This document shows, one piece after another, positions 489 through 12,579 of a stretch of 21,172 bases of DNA (the stretch's first letter is position 1; every line of letters starts with the position of its first letter). Both the position numbers and the translations under genes were made by a program. The DNA is taken from positions 1 to 21,172 of the forward strand of contig JAFOYH010000013.1 in the NCBI GenBank assembly GCA_017391465.1, in the 5' to 3' direction. The DNA is from Lachnospiraceae bacterium. Its GTDB lineage: Bacteria; Bacillota_A; Clostridia; Lachnospirales; Lachnospiraceae. A model generated the notes under the pieces. The model ran no database searches and was not told the origin of the DNA. It worked only from the letters and a program-made list of their open reading frames with translations.

Positions 489-1676
489 ATGATCAGACCG
501 AATATGCATTATAGCGAATTAGAAGATTCGTATTTATTTTATAATATCGCACAAAAAACAAAGGCATATGTGGAAGAACATAAAGGCACAAAGCTTTTAA
601 AAATGGGGATTGGAGATGTTTCATTACCATTGTCTGATGCCGTTATTCAGGCATTGCATGAGGCCGTAGATGATCAGGCATCGAAAGACGGCTTTCATGG
701 TTATATGCCGGAATGTGGAGCACCGTTTTTGAGGGAAGCGATTGCAAAGTATTATAAGAACAGGGGTGTTTTTTTATCTTCGGATGAAGTGTTTGTGTCG
801 AGTGGAGCCAGTGATGAACTGGGAGATATTCTGGACCTGTTTGATCCTTCCAGTTCGGCATTAGTCATTGAACCGGCATATCCAGCATATGTGGATGCAA
901 ATGTTATGGCAGGGCGTAAGATTGTACATCTGGCATCCGGGGAAGAAAATGGTTTTCTTCCGGAACCGAGTGAAGAAATAAAGGCTGATTTGCTGTACAT
1001 TTGTTCTCCAAATAACCCTACAGGAGCCGTGTTTTCTCGCAATCAGCTTCAAGCATGGGTAGATTTTGCTAATGAAAATGATTCTATCATTCTTTTTGAT
1101 GCAGCCTATGAGGCATTTATCGAAGATAAGACACTTCCGCACAGTATTTACGAACTTGACGGGGCAAAAAAATGTGCAATCGAAATCTGCTCTTTGTCTA
1201 AAACTGCCGGATTTACAGGAACCCGACTGGGGTATACCGTCATTCCAAAAGCACTGAACAGAAATGAAATGAACTTAAATGAAATGTGGGTGCGTAACCG
1301 TACAACCAAGACCAATGGAGTATCCTATATCATTCAGAAAGGCGGAGCAGCAGTTTTTACAGAAGAAGGACAAAGGCAGATTCAAGAGAATATCCGGATT
1401 TACAAAAACAATGCGAAGGTACTGATGGAAGCCCTTGATAAACTTGGAATCTGGTATTGTGGCGGAAAGAATGCGCCATATATCTGGATGAAATGCCCGA
1501 ATGGAATGGGAAGCTGGGAATTTTTTGATTACCTGCTTCATGAGATTCAGGTGGTAGGAACACCGGGAGAAGGCTTTGGTGCTTGTGGTGAAGGTTATTT
1601 TCGATTTTCCACCTTCGGATCAACAGAAGATACGAAAGAAGCGGCAAAAAGGCTTATAAGATTGCTTTCAAAATAA
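489..1676 (+). CDS. dapL: LL-diaminopimelate aminotransferase
   Basis: This is a 395-residue PLP-dependent fold-type I aminotransferase. DapL converts tetrahydrodipicolinate to LL-2,6-diaminopimelate in one step with glutamate as amino donor, bypassing the succinylase or acetylase branches and supplying lysine and peptidoglycan precursors. The opening (NMHYSELEDSYLF, then TKLLKMGIGDVSLPL) is typical of DapL. SPNNPTGAVF contains the conserved Asn-Pro substrate/cofactor contact. SLSKTAGFTGTRLGYT carries the predicted Schiff-base lysine, K238 by my count. The length fits the family (about 390-410). The start is supported by AAAGGAG at 476-482, six bases before the ATG. It lies 12 bases after carB and is followed by a strong terminator at 1742. 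A generic aspartate aminotransferase is the alternative, but the motif around the lysine favours DapL. Confidence 0.9.
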   Translation: MIRPNMHYSELEDSYLFYNIAQKTKAYVEEHKGTKLLKMGIGDVSLPLSDAVIQALHEAVDDQASKDGFHGYMPECGAPFLREAIAKYYKNRGVFLSSDEVFVSSGASDELGDILDLFDPSSSALVIEPAYPAYVDANVMAGRKIVHLASGEENGFLPEPSEEIKADLLYICSPNNPTGAVFSRNQLQAWVDFANENDSIILFDAAYEAFIEDKTLPHSIYELDGAKKCAIEICSLSKTAGFTGTRLGYTVIPKALNRNEMNLNEMWVRNRTTKTNGVSYIIQKGGAAVFTEEGQRQIQENIRIYKNNAKVLMEALDKLGIWYCGGKNAPYIWMKCPNGMGSWEFFDYLLHEIQVVGTPGEGFGACGEGYFRFSTFGSTEDTKEAAKRLIRLLSK

Positions 1677-1741
1677 AAGGAAGACATTGTCATTGATATA
1701 TATGGTGATAATCGAGAAATTACAGAAGATTGTTTTATGTG

Positions 1742-1773
1742 ATATAGAGGTACTTGTGACCTCTATATTTTTT
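1742..1773 (+). terminator. Intrinsic terminator of carB-dapL
   Basis: A perfect 10-bp stem, ATATAGAGGT (1742-1751) with ACCTCTATAT (1759-1768), has a 7-base loop and runs into a six-T tract. It closes the transcription unit ending with dapL and separates it from uvrB. Confidence 0.88.
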
Positions 1774-1781
1774 ATGCTCAT

Positions 1782-1808
1782 CATGGTATACTACTACCGT
1801 ATACCATG
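1782..1808. promoter_or_regulatory. Perfect 10-bp inverted repeat upstream of uvrB (candidate operator)
   Basis: CATGGTATAC (1782-1791) and GTATACCATG (1799-1808) are exact reverse complements separated by seven bases (TACTACC). The left arm contains TGGTATACT, which reads as an extended -10 element (TGn plus TATACT, 1784-1792), although the matching -35 is weak. This could be a repressor site overlapping the uvrB promoter, or an RNA hairpin in the leader. No T-run follows, so it is not an intrinsic terminator. Which protein binds is unknown. Confidence 0.5.
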
Positions 1809-1814
1809 GGGTTG

Positions 1815-1830
1815 ATGATATCTATATCAT
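1815..1830. repeat. Second short inverted repeat upstream of uvrB
   Basis: ATGATAT and ATATCAT form 7-bp arms separated by two bases (CT). It lies 50 bases before the uvrB start and six bases after the larger dyad. It is AT-only apart from one G and one C, so chance is possible. Confidence 0.35.
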
Positions 1831-1880
1831 TATTGTTGAAGTTGTAAAAAAATTTACTATAGACGATGGAGGCGAAAATT

Positions 1881-7632: not shown

Positions 7633-7844
7633 TGTGGATAAAGTCAAGAGCAAAAATGCAAAAAAGCGTATTTTATGAGAAATGCACAAAAAAATGGTCG
7701 AATCAGTGTGAATCTCAAAAATGCAAGGAAAAAATTATCCACAACACAAAAAGTTATCCACAATGAAAAAGATGGATTTTATGTGGAAAAATAACTTATT
7801 CACAGAGTTATCCACTTTATCCACAATGGATAGATTGTGGATGA
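7633..7844. promoter_or_regulatory. DnaA-box cluster (eight sites)
   Basis: Four exact TTATCCACA boxes occur at 7735-7743 (+), 7754-7762 (+), 7817-7825 (+) and 7633-7641 (-). Four more differ by one base: 7796-7804 (+, TTATTCACA), 7808-7816 (+, TTATCCACT), 7782-7790 (-) and 7836-7844 (-). Seven of the eight lie within 110 bases. DnaA, the replication initiator, binds this nonamer. The density is typical of oriC or of DnaA-titrating clusters such as the Bacillus DBCs or E. coli datA. No dnaA or dnaN gene is present, and gene direction does not switch here, so a non-origin reservoir or regulatory role is more likely. Confidence 0.85.
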
Positions 7845-8020
7845 ATTGTGAAAAGGCCAAATATATGTTTTGTTAAAAACGTAAAAAACGACAAAAAACA
7901 ACAGAAGAGCTTGACTTTTTTGTTGTTTATCCGATAGAAATAGTTTGTTTTTATTCGTCAGTATTTTGTAAAAAAAAGAATTGAATATTAAAATATTTTC
8001 AGAAAATACAAGGAATTGAC

Positions 8021-8048
8021 TTGAAAGAATACATGCATATGGTATAAT
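8021..8048 (+). promoter_or_regulatory. Promoter of hpf with extended -10
   Basis: TTGAAA (8021-8026) and TATAAT (8043-8048) have 16-base spacing, and TGG directly before the -10 gives an extended -10 element. The upstream TTGACT at 8016 would leave 21 bases, so I do not use it. Confidence 0.7.
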
Positions 8049-8081
8049 TAGAACATAATAACACAGTAAGGAGTGATATGT

Positions 8082-8609
8082 ATGCGTATTACCATTAGCG
8101 GAAAAAATATCGAAGTGACTCAAGGACTTAAAGAGGCTGTGTATGAAAAACTGGACAAGTTAGACAAGTACTTTACTTCGGATACCGAAGCGATCGTTAC
8201 ACTTAGTGTGGAAAAGAATCGTCAGAAGATTGAAGTGACCATACCGATTAAAGGAAGTGTTATTCGAGCAGAAGAAGTGAGCGATGATATGTACGTATCC
8301 ATTGATCTTGTACAGGAGATCATCGAACGTCAGATGCGTAAACATAAAACACGTTTAACGAATCGTTATCGTAACGGCGGACTTTTCCAGCCGTCCTATT
8401 TTGAGATGGAAGTGGATGATCCGGACGAAGTTCGTATTGTTCGTACAAAGAGATTTGCAATTAAACCGATGGATCCGGAAGAAGCTTGTCTGGAGATGGA
8501 ACTTTCGGGACATTCATTCTTTGTATTCCGTAATTCGGAAACAGATGATGTGAACGTTGTCTATAAGAGAAAAGGAAACACATATGGTTTGATTGAACCA
8601 GAATATTAA
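8082..8609 (+). CDS. hpf: Ribosome hibernation promoting factor, long form
   Basis: The 175-residue product is a long HPF, which binds the 30S decoding site in slow growth and joins two ribosomes into inactive 100S dimers. The N-terminal HPF/RaiA fold starts MRITISGKNIEVT and carries a basic RNA-binding surface (RQMRKHKTRLTNRYRNG). After a short linker, the C-terminal dimerisation domain (about residues 117-172) shows VRTKRFAIKPMDPEEA and ends NVVYKRKGNTYGLI, as in Firmicute long forms. ATG 8082 is supported by AAGGAG at 8068-8073 with an eight-base gap; an upstream in-frame GTG at 8073 overlaps the ribosome binding site. The gene has its own promoter and terminator. Order hpf-secA-prfB is common in Firmicutes. 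Confidence 0.95.
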   Translation: MRITISGKNIEVTQGLKEAVYEKLDKLDKYFTSDTEAIVTLSVEKNRQKIEVTIPIKGSVIRAEEVSDDMYVSIDLVQEIIERQMRKHKTRLTNRYRNGGLFQPSYFEMEVDDPDEVRIVRTKRFAIKPMDPEEACLEMELSGHSFFVFRNSETDDVNVVYKRKGNTYGLIEPEY

Positions 8610-8659: not shown

Positions 8660-8689
8660 TTGCGTAAAACTTATAGGTTGTGTTACAAT
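8660..8689 (+). promoter_or_regulatory. Possible secA promoter
   Basis: TTGCGT (8660-8665) and TACAAT (8684-8689) have 18-base spacing, directly after the hpf terminator. The -35 match is poor. A small dyad TTGTA-TG-TACAA (8693-8704) lies at the expected start site. Confidence 0.4.
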
Positions 8690-8781
8690 GTCTTGTATGT
8701 ACAATGGGGGAAGAGTACATTAGGATAAATAGAAAGTCAGATCATAGAATATATAAAAATTTAATGGGAGTGAATAGTAGA

Positions 8782-11394
8782 ATGGGTTTCTTTTCAAAGC
8801 TTATGGGAACGCACAGTCAGCGTGAATTAAAACGAATTTATCCGATTGTGGATAAGATCGAAGCGCTGGATTCGGTTGTTTCCAAATTATCCGATGAAGA
8901 ATTAAGAGATAAGACACGTATTTTTAAAGAAAGACTGGAACAGGGAGAAACATTGGATGACCTTCTTGTAGAAGCTTTTGCGGTTGTACGCGAAGCGGCA
9001 TATCGTGTGCTTGGTATGAAACATTACCGTGTTCAGTTGATTGGCGGTATCATTCTTCATCAGGGACGTATTTCTGAAATGAAAACAGGTGAAGGTAAAA
9101 CCTTGGTTTCTACATTACCTGCATATTTAAATGCCCTTGAAGGCAAGGGGGTTCACGTAGTCACTGTCAATGATTATCTTGCAAAGCGAGATGCTGAGTG
9201 GATGGGAAAAGTACATGAATTCCTTGGTTTGAAGGTTGGTGTGATTTTAAACAGCATGACACCGGAAGAACGTCAGGAAGCTTATGCGTGTGATATCACT
9301 TATGCAACCAATAATGAATTAGGCTTCGATTATTTGAGAGACAACATGGTTGTTTATAAAGAGAAACTTGTCCAGCGTGGTCTTCATTATGCCATCATTG
9401 ATGAAGTTGACTCGGTGCTTATTGACGAAGCACGTACACCATTGATCATTTCCGGACAGAGTGGTAAATCCACAGAACTTTATCGTGCCTGTGATATCCT
9501 TGCGCGTCAGATGCAAAAAGGTGAAGCCAGCGGTGAGATGACAAAGATGGCAGCCATTATGGGTGAAGAAATCATCGAAACCGGTGATTATATTGTAAAT
9601 GAAAAAGAAAAGAATGTATCTTTAACGGAAGACGGTGTAAGAAAGGTTGAACAGTTTTTCCATATTGAAAATCTGGCAGATGCAGACAATCTTGAAATTC
9701 AGCACAACATTATTCTTGCTCTTCGTGCACATAACTTAATGCATAAAGATCATGATTATGTGGTGAAAGATGATCAGGTGCTGATCGTTGATGAATTTAC
9801 GGGTCGTATTATGCCTGGCCGTCGTTATTCTGATGGTTTGCATCAGGCGATTGAGGCAAAAGAAGGTGTTAAAGTAAAACGTGAAAGCAAGACGCTTGCA
9901 ACCATTACTTTCCAGAACTTCTTTAATAAATACGATAAAAAAGCCGGTATGACAGGTACTGCACTCACAGAAGAACAGGAATTTCGCGATATTTACGGTA
10001 TGGATGTTATTGAGATTCCAACCAATGTTCCAGTAAAACGTAAAGATATGGAAGATCTTGTATACAAAACAAAACGCGAAAAAGTCAATGCGGTTGTGGA
10101 TAAAATTATTGAAGCGCATGCAAAAGGTCAGCCGGTACTTGTTGGTACAATTACCATTGAGGCATCTGAAATTTTCAGTGAAGCTTTAAGAAAAAAAGGA
10201 ATCCCACACAAGGTGCTGAATGCAAAATTCCATGAAATGGAAGCTGAGATTGTTGCACAGGCCGGTCAGATGGGAGCGGTTACTATTGCGACCAACATGG
10301 CAGGTCGTGGTACGGACATTAAACTTGGCGAAGGCGTACCTGAAATTGGCGGACTTATGATTATCGGTACAGAACGTCATGAAGCACGTCGTATTGATAA
10401 TCAGCTTCGTGGTCGTTCCGGACGTCAGGGTGATCCGGGTGTTTCCCAGTTCTTTATTTCTCTTGAAGATGATTTGATGCGTCTCTTTGGTTCGGAACGT
10501 TTGATGGGAATATTTACATCTTTAGGATTTCCGGAAGGAGAAGCGATTGAACATAAGATGCTTTCGGATGCAGTGGAAAAAGCTCAGACGAAGATTGAAG
10601 GCAATCATTACGGCATGCGTAAGAACGTCCTTGAATACGATCAGGTTATGAATGAACAGAGAGAAATCATGTATGCAGAACGTCGCCGGGTTCTTGAAGG
10701 TGAAGATATGCATGATGTGATCTTTAGAATGATTCGTGACACAGTAAGAAATCATGTGCATATGCATATTCCGGTGGAACTTGCAGTGAATGAACAGGAT
10801 CAGGAAAAGCTTGAACAGAAACTAACAGTTGCAGACATTGAATTGCTTGAACTTGCTCGTGGTCTTGTGAAAATTATTCCATATAATAATGTATCATGGG
10901 ATGTGAACGATTATGCGGGAGTTACACTGGATACGTTTATTCAGGAACTTTCCGATAAAGCGGCGGCTGTTTATGAAGCTAAGACAAAAGAATTTCCGGA
11001 CATGGAACATTTGCGTGAATTAGAACGTGTTGTTCTTTTAAAAATGATTGATCGTCGCTGGATGGATCACATTGATAATATGGAACAGCTTCGTCAAAGC
11101 ATTGGTCTTCAGGCTTATGGTCAGAAGAATCCAGTTGTCGAATATCGTTTTGCTGGTTATGACATGTTTGATGAAATGACACAGGGTATTTCTGAAGATA
11201 CAGTAGAAGCGTTGATGCATGTGCGCATCCAGCAGCCGGTACAACGTGAAGAAGCTGCCAAGATTACCGGGACAAACAAAGATGACAGTTCGGTTAAGCA
11301 GCCAGTGCGCCGTAAAGACACAAAGATTTATCCGAATTCCCCATGTCCATGTGGAAGTGGTAAAAAATACAAACAGTGTTGCGGACGTAAATAA
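8782..11394 (+). CDS. secA: Preprotein translocase ATPase SecA
   Basis: SecA drives ATP-dependent export of unfolded proteins through SecYEG at the inner face of the membrane. The 870-residue protein shows the N-terminal helix ([19 protein letters not shown]), Walker A in MKTGEGKT (K106), the [16 protein letters not shown]alker B region, preprotein cross-linking domain, second motor half with [10 protein letters not shown] and [10 protein letters not shown], the scaffold and wing domains, and a C-terminal SEC-C zinc motif, C-x-C-x8-C-C, in [16 protein letters not shown]. That tail and the full length mark the housekeeping SecA1. I chose ATG 8782 because it starts the conserved first helix and GGGAGTG precedes it by nine bases; in-frame upstream codons back to 8680 lie in the leader. 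prfB follows after 62 bases. Confidence 0.97.
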
Positions 11395-11456: not shown

Positions 11457-12579
11457 ATGGTCGAATTAGATCAGTTCAAAGTAACTTTATTAAGTTATGA
11501 AACACCATTAGCGGAAGTGAGGGATTCACTTTGACTTGGCTCATAAGCAGTCCAGGATCGGTGAATTAGAGAATATGATGGAAGAACCCGGATTTTGGGA
11601 TAATCCGGACAGCTCCAATAAAGCGATGAAGGAGCTGAAAAATCTCAAAGATACTGTAGAAAAGTATGCAGAATTGGAAACTGCATATGAAGATGTAGAA
11701 ACGTTGATTGAGATGGGATACGAGGAAAATGACGAAAGTCTTATTCCAGAGATTGAAGAGGCGTTAAACCTTTTTGTCGAAGAATTTGAAACACTTCGAA
11801 TTGCCACGTTATTAAGTGATGAATACGATAATAGTAACGCGATTGTGACATTGCATGCCGGTGCAGGCGGAACTGAAGCCTGTGACTGGACAAGCATGCT
11901 TTATCGTATGTATACGCGTTGGGCAGAAAAACACGGATTTGCTATTGAAATTTTAGATTTTCTGGATGGCGATGAAGCTGGTATTAAAGCAATCACGATG
12001 CAGATTAATGGCGAGAATGCTTATGGATATCTGAAAGCAGAAAAAGGCATTCATCGTCTGGTGCGTATATCTCCATTTAATGCAGCGGGAAAAAGACAGA
12101 CATCCTTTTCGTCCTGTGATGTTATTCCGGAGATTGAAGAAGATGTGGACATCGAGATTCTTGATAAAGATCTGCGTGTGGATACGTATCGTGCAAGCGG
12201 TGCAGGTGGTCAGCATGTCAACAAAACCTCTTCTGCGATTCGTATTACCCATTTGCCAACCGGTATTGTTGTTCAGTGTCAGAATGAACGTTCTCAGCAT
12301 ATGAACAGAGATAAAGCGATGCAGATGTTAAAGGCAAAATTATTCCTTTTAAAACAACAGGAAAATGAAGAAAAAGCATCCGATATCCGTGGTGAAGTCA
12401 AGGAAATTGGTTGGGGTAATCAGATACGTTCGTATGTCATGCAGCCATATAAGTTGGTAAAAGATCATCGAACAAATACAGAGATCAGTAATGTTGACAG
12501 TGTAATGGATGGTAATATTGATCCGTTTATTAACGCATTTCTTAAATGGCGCAGTATAGGTAAGAATAAAGCGGAATAA
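11457..12579 (+). CDS. prfB: Peptide chain release factor 2, with programmed +1 frameshift
   Basis: RF2 ends translation at UGA and UAA. The gene is split over two frames: 25 codons from ATG 11457 to CTT 11529-11531, then an in-frame TGA. Skipping T11532 continues GAC TTG GCT for 348 residues, 373 in all. The second part has the stop-recognition SPF motif (RISPFNAAGK) and the catalytic GGQ (SGAGGQHVNK). AAGGTG at 11446-11451 is the ribosome binding site. The shift makes RF2 level self-adjusting: scarce RF2 leaves UGA unread and favours the shift. It follows secA and precedes the ACT gene by 19 bases, probably in one operon. This is normal recoding and not a broken gene; coordinates are join 11457-11531 and 11533-12579. 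Confidence 0.97.
11520..11535 (+). other. prfB +1 recoding site
   Basis: CTT TGA C (11529-11535) is the shift site, and AGGG at 11520-11523 is the internal Shine-Dalgarno element. Its first A lies nine bases before CTT, the same register as in E. coli (AGGGGGTATCTTTGAC), but the G-run is shorter here. Confidence 0.93.

Follow-up and report, generated by a model that had tools for sequence, protein, structure and literature searches.

A conserved DnaA-box array outside oriC, upstream of the ribosome hibernation gene hpf in Lachnospiraceae

A dense array of DnaA boxes was found upstream of hpf, which encodes a ribosome hibernation factor, in contig JAFOYH010000013.1 of a Lachnospiraceae bacterium (assembly GCA_017391465.1); the whole stretch analysed, 21,172 nucleotides, is called the window here. 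The array is real, is conserved in relatives and lies outside oriC. With a probability of roughly 0.58 we read it as an oriC-proximal DnaA-box cluster (DBC). The present analysis shows the box sites, how far they are conserved, the rules of their spacing and, in relatives, how far the array lies from dnaA; that DnaA binds and is titrated, and that a palindrome beside the array is a site for LexA, is inferred. The conserved sites and spacing in many relatives suggest an element of replication control located at a distance from the origin. Since the timing of initiation in Gram-positive anaerobes is poorly known, a defined and conserved DnaA-box site outside oriC in Lachnospiraceae is of interest, all the more as its exact spacing rules can be mutated singly. 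The co-location of a ribosome hibernation gene with a replication site and an SOS-like site offers a directly testable link.

Sites, conservation and spacing of the array

Eight DnaA boxes, four exact copies of TTATCCACA and four with one mismatch, were counted between positions 7633 and 7844, seven of the eight within 110 bases, in agreement with the preliminary description of this DNA. A cluster of the same kind is present upstream of hpf in the five closest loci (L001–L005; HPF 80–84% identical), two of which are named Frisingicoccus, L005 being Frisingicoccus caecimuris DSM 28559. The boxes are:

7633–7641, minus strand: exact DnaA box TTATCCACA, outlying; L001, L003 and L005 have a minus-strand box at about the same position
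7735–7743, plus strand: exact DnaA box, 73 bp upstream of box B and in helical phase with it; shared by L001, L003 and L005
7754–7762, plus strand: box A, an exact and conserved DnaA box, 54 bp upstream of box B
7782–7790, minus strand: one-mismatch DnaA box TTTTCCACA; not found here within one mismatch in L001–L005
7796–7804, plus strand: box D, one mismatch, TTATTCACA, 12 bp before box B; mostly TTATACACN in relatives
7808–7816, plus strand: box B, one mismatch, TTATCCACT, abutting box C
7817–7825, plus strand: box C, exact DnaA box TTATCCACA
7836–7844, minus strand: one-mismatch DnaA box TCATCCACA; also in L003

The boxes are clustered far beyond chance, as expected for a DBC outside oriC. 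The preliminary description had estimated that an exact box should occur less than once per window, and indeed shuffled sequences held 0.16 on average and none of 100 shuffles reached the six found; the two exact boxes outside the cluster (8847 and 10095) are inside secA. Boxes with at most one mismatch numbered 20 in the whole window compared to a shuffle mean of 6.8, and at the shuffle rate the Poisson probability of eight boxes per 212 bases is approximately 1e-14. The box stretch is AT-rich (31% GC) and as single-stranded DNA has a strong predicted fold (z -4.7), which we attribute to the presence of boxes on both strands.

Conservation in close relatives, on which the preliminary description had made its interpretation depend, was examined in the best 80 of 227 loci from an HPF-protein search, of which nine with less than 600 bp upstream were dropped. 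The most conserved piece is the pair of abutting boxes B and C on the strand of hpf: it precedes hpf in 60 of the 71 remaining loci with up to two mismatches, in 54 with at most one and in 36 exactly, and was found nowhere else in 1.2 Mb of the same loci with up to two mismatches. Ungapped conservation is largely limited to the boxes, AGTTATaCACnnAG-TTATCCACA-TTATCCACA and a further box approximately 53 bp before, and the flanks have diverged. In a wider draw from the class, 138 genomes were searched, 125 had an hpf match, and 60 regions were taken where the contig had room (one, L131, of only 738 bp), with hpf starts estimated from the domain match; the regions upstream of hpf contained 98 boxes compared to 16 from shuffles. 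Six of the 41 class regions that do not have the pair just before hpf, all from other Clostridia, carry the same array geometry 2.7–3.5 kb from hpf. Genes were identified by Pfam at two of these six: an ABC-transporter operon and one more open reading frame (ORF) lie between array and hpf in L177, and in L183 the gap is taken up by a gene for a solute-binding protein together with two ORFs of corresponding size, with hpf inverted. Furthermore, 168 of 200 genomes of the family have the abutting pair with at most one mismatch somewhere among the matches listed, and a reversed control pattern gave seven matches in six of the 200.

The spacing was determined in 66 non-redundant arrays, kept from 141 examined regions (82 with the pair) at less than 70% identity and with a context of 150 bp or more; the class draw contributed 17 of them. 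In the conserved core the weak box D starts 12 bp before box B, box C follows B at 9 bp, and boxes A, D, B and C are co-oriented. A plus-strand box 20–110 bp before B was found in 52 of the 66 arrays (64 boxes), at 42–44 (13 boxes), 52–55 (34), 63–65 (8) and 72–75 bp (5), with single boxes at 85, 95, 98 and 102 bp. Same-strand boxes at 20–41, 45–51, 56–62 and 66–71 bp before B were found in none of the 66, and the 16 counts of minus-strand boxes before the pair are scattered. The best period of the upstream spacing is 10.5 bp; among random placements 0.025% (p 0.00025) were phased as strongly as the distinct values, or 0.3% without the commonest class, figures that are guides only because the sequences are related and kinship inflates them. 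The geometry of the array is constrained, with the upstream box nearly always in helical phase with the pair. An origin in chance, or in inherited sequence without function, is contradicted by boxes kept between diverged flanks and by the phased spacing; nothing was found in its favour, and its probability is negligible.

Position relative to dnaA and a second array

The genes around the array are all on the plus strand, as had been described before, in the order uvrB, tRNA, acyl-ACP thioesterase, cvfB-like, NlpC/P60-SH3, box cluster, hpf, secA and prfB. The downstream neighbours are:

8082–8609, plus strand: hpf, long-form ribosome hibernation factor (PF02482, PF16321, TIGR00741); the hidden Markov model (HMM) scan used 8073–8609, and the start at 8082 was read by eye
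8680–11394, plus strand: secA, identified by HMM scans

Neither dnaA nor dnaN nor recF was found among the 18 ORFs of the window scanned with Pfam (the first ten also with NCBIfam), and an Rfam scan of the window gave nothing beyond three tRNAs. In the prfB ORF (11536–12579) the match begins at model position 18, a start that would fit the usual prfB frameshift site if this is located upstream of the ORF.

Dense DnaA boxes in AT-rich DNA are also what a replication origin, main or secondary, would offer. A GC-skew switch at the cluster, which the preliminary description had named as the sign of oriC, was looked for and is absent from the window: the skew is positive throughout. Positions of the switch and of dnaA were taken from the genomes of relatives. 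In the complete genome G002, sampled in 22 stretches, the skew stays negative up to 3430 kb, except for a value near zero at 3400 kb, and from 3431.5 kb, at dnaA, it is positive; the hpf array is located 404 kb beyond this point. Besides, ungapped comparison revealed no strongly conserved block at a constant position downstream of box C, where just two columns, 10 and 12 bp away, were weakly conserved, although no search was aimed at a DnaA-trio. The skew and genes of the window and the genomes of relatives thus place the array outside the origin, as had been presumed, with neither a skew switch nor a dnaA/dnaN neighbourhood at the array in the window or in G002; oriC or a second origin was rejected on the skew and is extremely improbable.

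The distance between the hpf array and dnaA amounts to 357–448 kb, or approximately 6.3–7.0% of the genome, in four relatives (G001–G004, three Anaerocolumna and Clostridium sp. KNHs205; the value for G004 comes from a contig of 4.7 Mb in a genome of 6.4 Mb). A fixed distance from oriC was rejected, since three further genomes depart from this range, with 10% (G338), 8% on the other arm (G240) and 25% (G245); the latter two have the array far from hpf.

The whole genomes of G002 and G003 each contain just two loci at which exact boxes on one strand stand within 25 bp of one another: the hpf array, and a locus flanked on one side by a Mur-ligase gene (read as murC) and on the other by an initiation gene of DnaB_2 type, itself followed by a DnaC/DnaI-like loader gene. 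This second array is on the opposite side of dnaA from the hpf array in G001–G003. Nine loci of this dnaC type were read (L097, L098, L103, L106, L108, L109, L111, L112 and L114), with genes confirmed by Pfam at three; in seven of the nine, pairs are present at two places 146–176 bp apart. The position of the second array suggests a control of the loader genes by DnaA. The loader operon of G002 (L098), although situated on the left arm, is encoded on the same strand as dnaA and runs counter to the skew there, and position and strand of the loader gene in G003 suggest the same arrangement. Very dense sets of boxes were seen at L104, with 17 boxes within 350 bp next to dnaA, and at L113, with 24 boxes within approximately 500 bp beside a 464-amino-acid ORF without HMM identification.

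Motif E, hpf and the function of the array

Two further features are located between the array and hpf:

7857–7873, plus strand: motif E, a palindrome CCAAATATATGTTTTGT like a LexA/SOS box, its GTTTTG beginning 41 bp after box C
8021–8048, plus strand: predicted hpf promoter, TTGAAA-16-TATAAT with extended -10, a consensus match only

Motif E, approximately (C/A)(G/A)AA[C/T/A]RNNTGTTTTGT, follows box C in 43 of the 66 regions and in none of 66 mononucleotide shuffles scored with a matrix trained on the real sites. GTTTTG starts 20–23 (7 regions), 40–41 (7) or 50–53 bp (29) after C, roughly in phase with the array (p 0.009, distinct values). It is similar to the measured LexA operators of C. 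difficile, given as GAACN4GTTT (PMC4234289), and the LexA assignment was tested with the lexA promoters of ten genomes. With a matrix of 12 boxes from four lexA promoters, motif E came first in its own locus for 13 of the 37 sites scored and within the three highest for 24, counts that include two sites (L003 and L054) that are not credible matches. Motif E of the window reached the best matrix score in 21 kb (13.9) but stayed below all 12 training boxes (15.4–20.2). In a second lineage (G314, G338, G228 and G262) it is a perfect palindrome, ACAAAACANNTGTTTTGT, whose exact form was found only at the hpf array, so that a dimeric protein other than LexA may be considered; six sites of this type scored 7.9–13.3 with a matrix built from 16 boxes in the lexA promoters of their lineage, compared to 14.4–18.3 for the training boxes. 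The pattern CGAAYRNNYGTTYKG had 17 matches in G001–G004, three of them at hpf arrays, and since its reversed control had 19, the match count itself is not enriched. Five of the 14 matches elsewhere precede lexA, ruvA or uvrB (lexA confirmed by HMM, ruvA and uvrB recognised by eye). No LexA-like site with up to one mismatch was found in the 190 bp before uvrB of the window (1676–1866), though uvrB is a usual SOS gene. We propose motif E as a LexA site, similar to but weaker than the boxes of lexA promoters.

The array could also serve transcriptional control of hpf and its downstream genes, with DnaA and LexA, or another dimeric repressor at motif E, keeping hibernation in step with replication or DNA damage. 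Tandem boxes mark just two loci in G002 and G003, of which hpf is one, and motif E was found at hpf-adjacent arrays but at none of the six arrays away from hpf and none of the nine dnaC-type arrays, judged by a criterion under which 41 of the 43 known sites are detected. The gene upstream also varies, an NlpC/SH3 relative being present in 28 of the 52 array-bearing loci with room. The position of the array fits such a control less well. It lies 176 bp upstream of the predicted -35 in the window, but among 63 array-bearing loci a promoter-like site was found in 61 at 8–433 bp after box C (55 of them at 74–328 bp), with groups near 195 and 264 bp and no 10.5-bp pattern by eye; occlusion of the hpf promoter by the array was rejected since this distance varies widely. 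The geometry is also kept in the six genomes in which hpf is 2.7–3.5 kb away, in one of them inverted, and therefore is not tied to the hpf promoter. In array-bearing loci with room secA is present in 47 of 48, but in only 36 does it closely follow hpf on the same strand, so that no fixed hpf-secA unit accompanies the array. The presence of hpf is itself uninformative, since hpf was the bait in the search for the 80 loci. The regulatory region before hpf proposed in the preliminary description is supported in part: the special standing of the locus and the confinement of motif E to it speak for it, and the varying distance to the promoter and the arrays far from hpf speak against it. A local regulatory role is allowed but not required by the geometry and is possible; as the main function of the array we hold it to be rather unlikely.

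We prefer the DBC reading because the pair is kept in 60 of 71 relatives and absent from the 1.2 Mb elsewhere in the same loci, because conservation is largely limited to the boxes with box A on 10.5-bp steps, because tandem-box loci are only two per genome in G002 and G003, one on each side of dnaA, and because the array is 357–448 kb from dnaA in four relatives and its geometry persists far from hpf in six. Several observations weigh against it. The pair is missing at up to two mismatches in 11 of the 71 relatives (L055 and L066 among them have it at three) and precedes hpf directly in only 19 of the 60 class regions, and therefore seems dispensable in some lineages; 14 of the 66 arrays have no phased upstream box; the distances of 10, 8 and 25% from dnaA do not follow the other four genomes; motif E occurs only at hpf-adjacent copies, which favours a local role; and binding of DnaA at the array is a prediction.

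If the DBC reading is correct, DnaA would bind cooperatively to boxes D, B and C, which are in tandem on one strand, and the bound protein would reach box A across the same helical face, forming a compact complex that keeps DnaA from oriC. Replicated early in every round, the array would adjust how much free DnaA is at hand for initiation. Motif E beside the array may be occupied by a dimeric protein, with LexA the likeliest candidate, that ties the complex to DNA damage, and a side effect on transcription of hpf is conceivable. A more far-reaching version is a LexA-gated DnaA complex of Clostridia, in which the phased array on one arm near the origin includes a LexA operator within its geometry, and DNA damage changes the amount of DnaA held and possibly the output of hpf. 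It would be an independent counterpart of E. coli DARS1/uvrB built from a different box geometry and paired with the helicase-loader array on the other arm; we consider it speculative and unlikely.

Comparison with known DnaA-binding loci

The literature was searched for this array, for DnaA boxes in Lachnospiraceae and for DnaA or LexA together with hibernation promoting factor, and no report of the array was found. The comparison below draws on passages of the sources given here and of PMC4447404, PMC7561715, PMC8682772, PMC5749712 and PMC6015884. The bipartite oriC of Firmicutes such as C. difficile and B. subtilis shares with the array the clustering of DnaA boxes in intergenic DNA, but the window has neither dnaA nor dnaN among its scanned ORFs nor a skew switch. 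E. coli datA, too, is a DnaA-box locus in non-coding DNA, and its relative distance from oriC is conserved (PMC4585315). It consists of DnaA boxes and an IHF site, works with IHF and stimulates hydrolysis of DnaA-bound ATP, whereas B. subtilis, the Gram-positive model, has neither IHF nor datA (PMC13220808).

The promoter region of E. coli uvrB with the DnaA-reactivating sequence (DARS) DARS1 combines DnaA boxes with LexA sites and is the precedent for joint control by DnaA and LexA, although a two-hybrid assay gave no direct contact between the two proteins. A DARS-type locus at hpf would agree with the spacing of 12 bp from D to B on the same strand, which resembles the two minus-strand boxes of DARS1, and with the LexA site that overlaps DARS1 in E. 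coli. However, boxes I and II of DARS are head-to-head, whereas A, D, B and C all point in the same direction in the conserved core, and the LexA-like site is separate from the boxes here. The DARS family was ruled out by this orientation, no opposing boxes I and II being found in the core, and a reactivating function is improbable. Thus, of the titrating or reactivating locus suggested by the preliminary description, the conserved cluster of DBC kind remains and the DARS type has been discarded.

The DnaA-box clusters of B. subtilis outside oriC, in the ywlC, ywcI/vpr, gcp/ydiF, yqeG/sda, yydA and trmE/jag regions, are the closest likeness, with several DnaA boxes in mostly intergenic DNA. 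They are at other loci; hpf, yvyD and secA are absent from the main text of the binding paper, whose supplementary list has 269 regions, and an abutting same-strand pair, a phased outlying box and motif E are not described in the passages compared. According to a review of 2026, B. subtilis is not known to have a regulator that balances ADP- and ATP-DnaA (PMC13220808). Single clusters matter little, but joint removal of all six leads to early initiation (PMC5295017, PMC13220808), a further reason for the DBC reading. With the head-to-head core of DARS absent, the array at hpf is best read as a cluster of the DBC kind with a new architecture.
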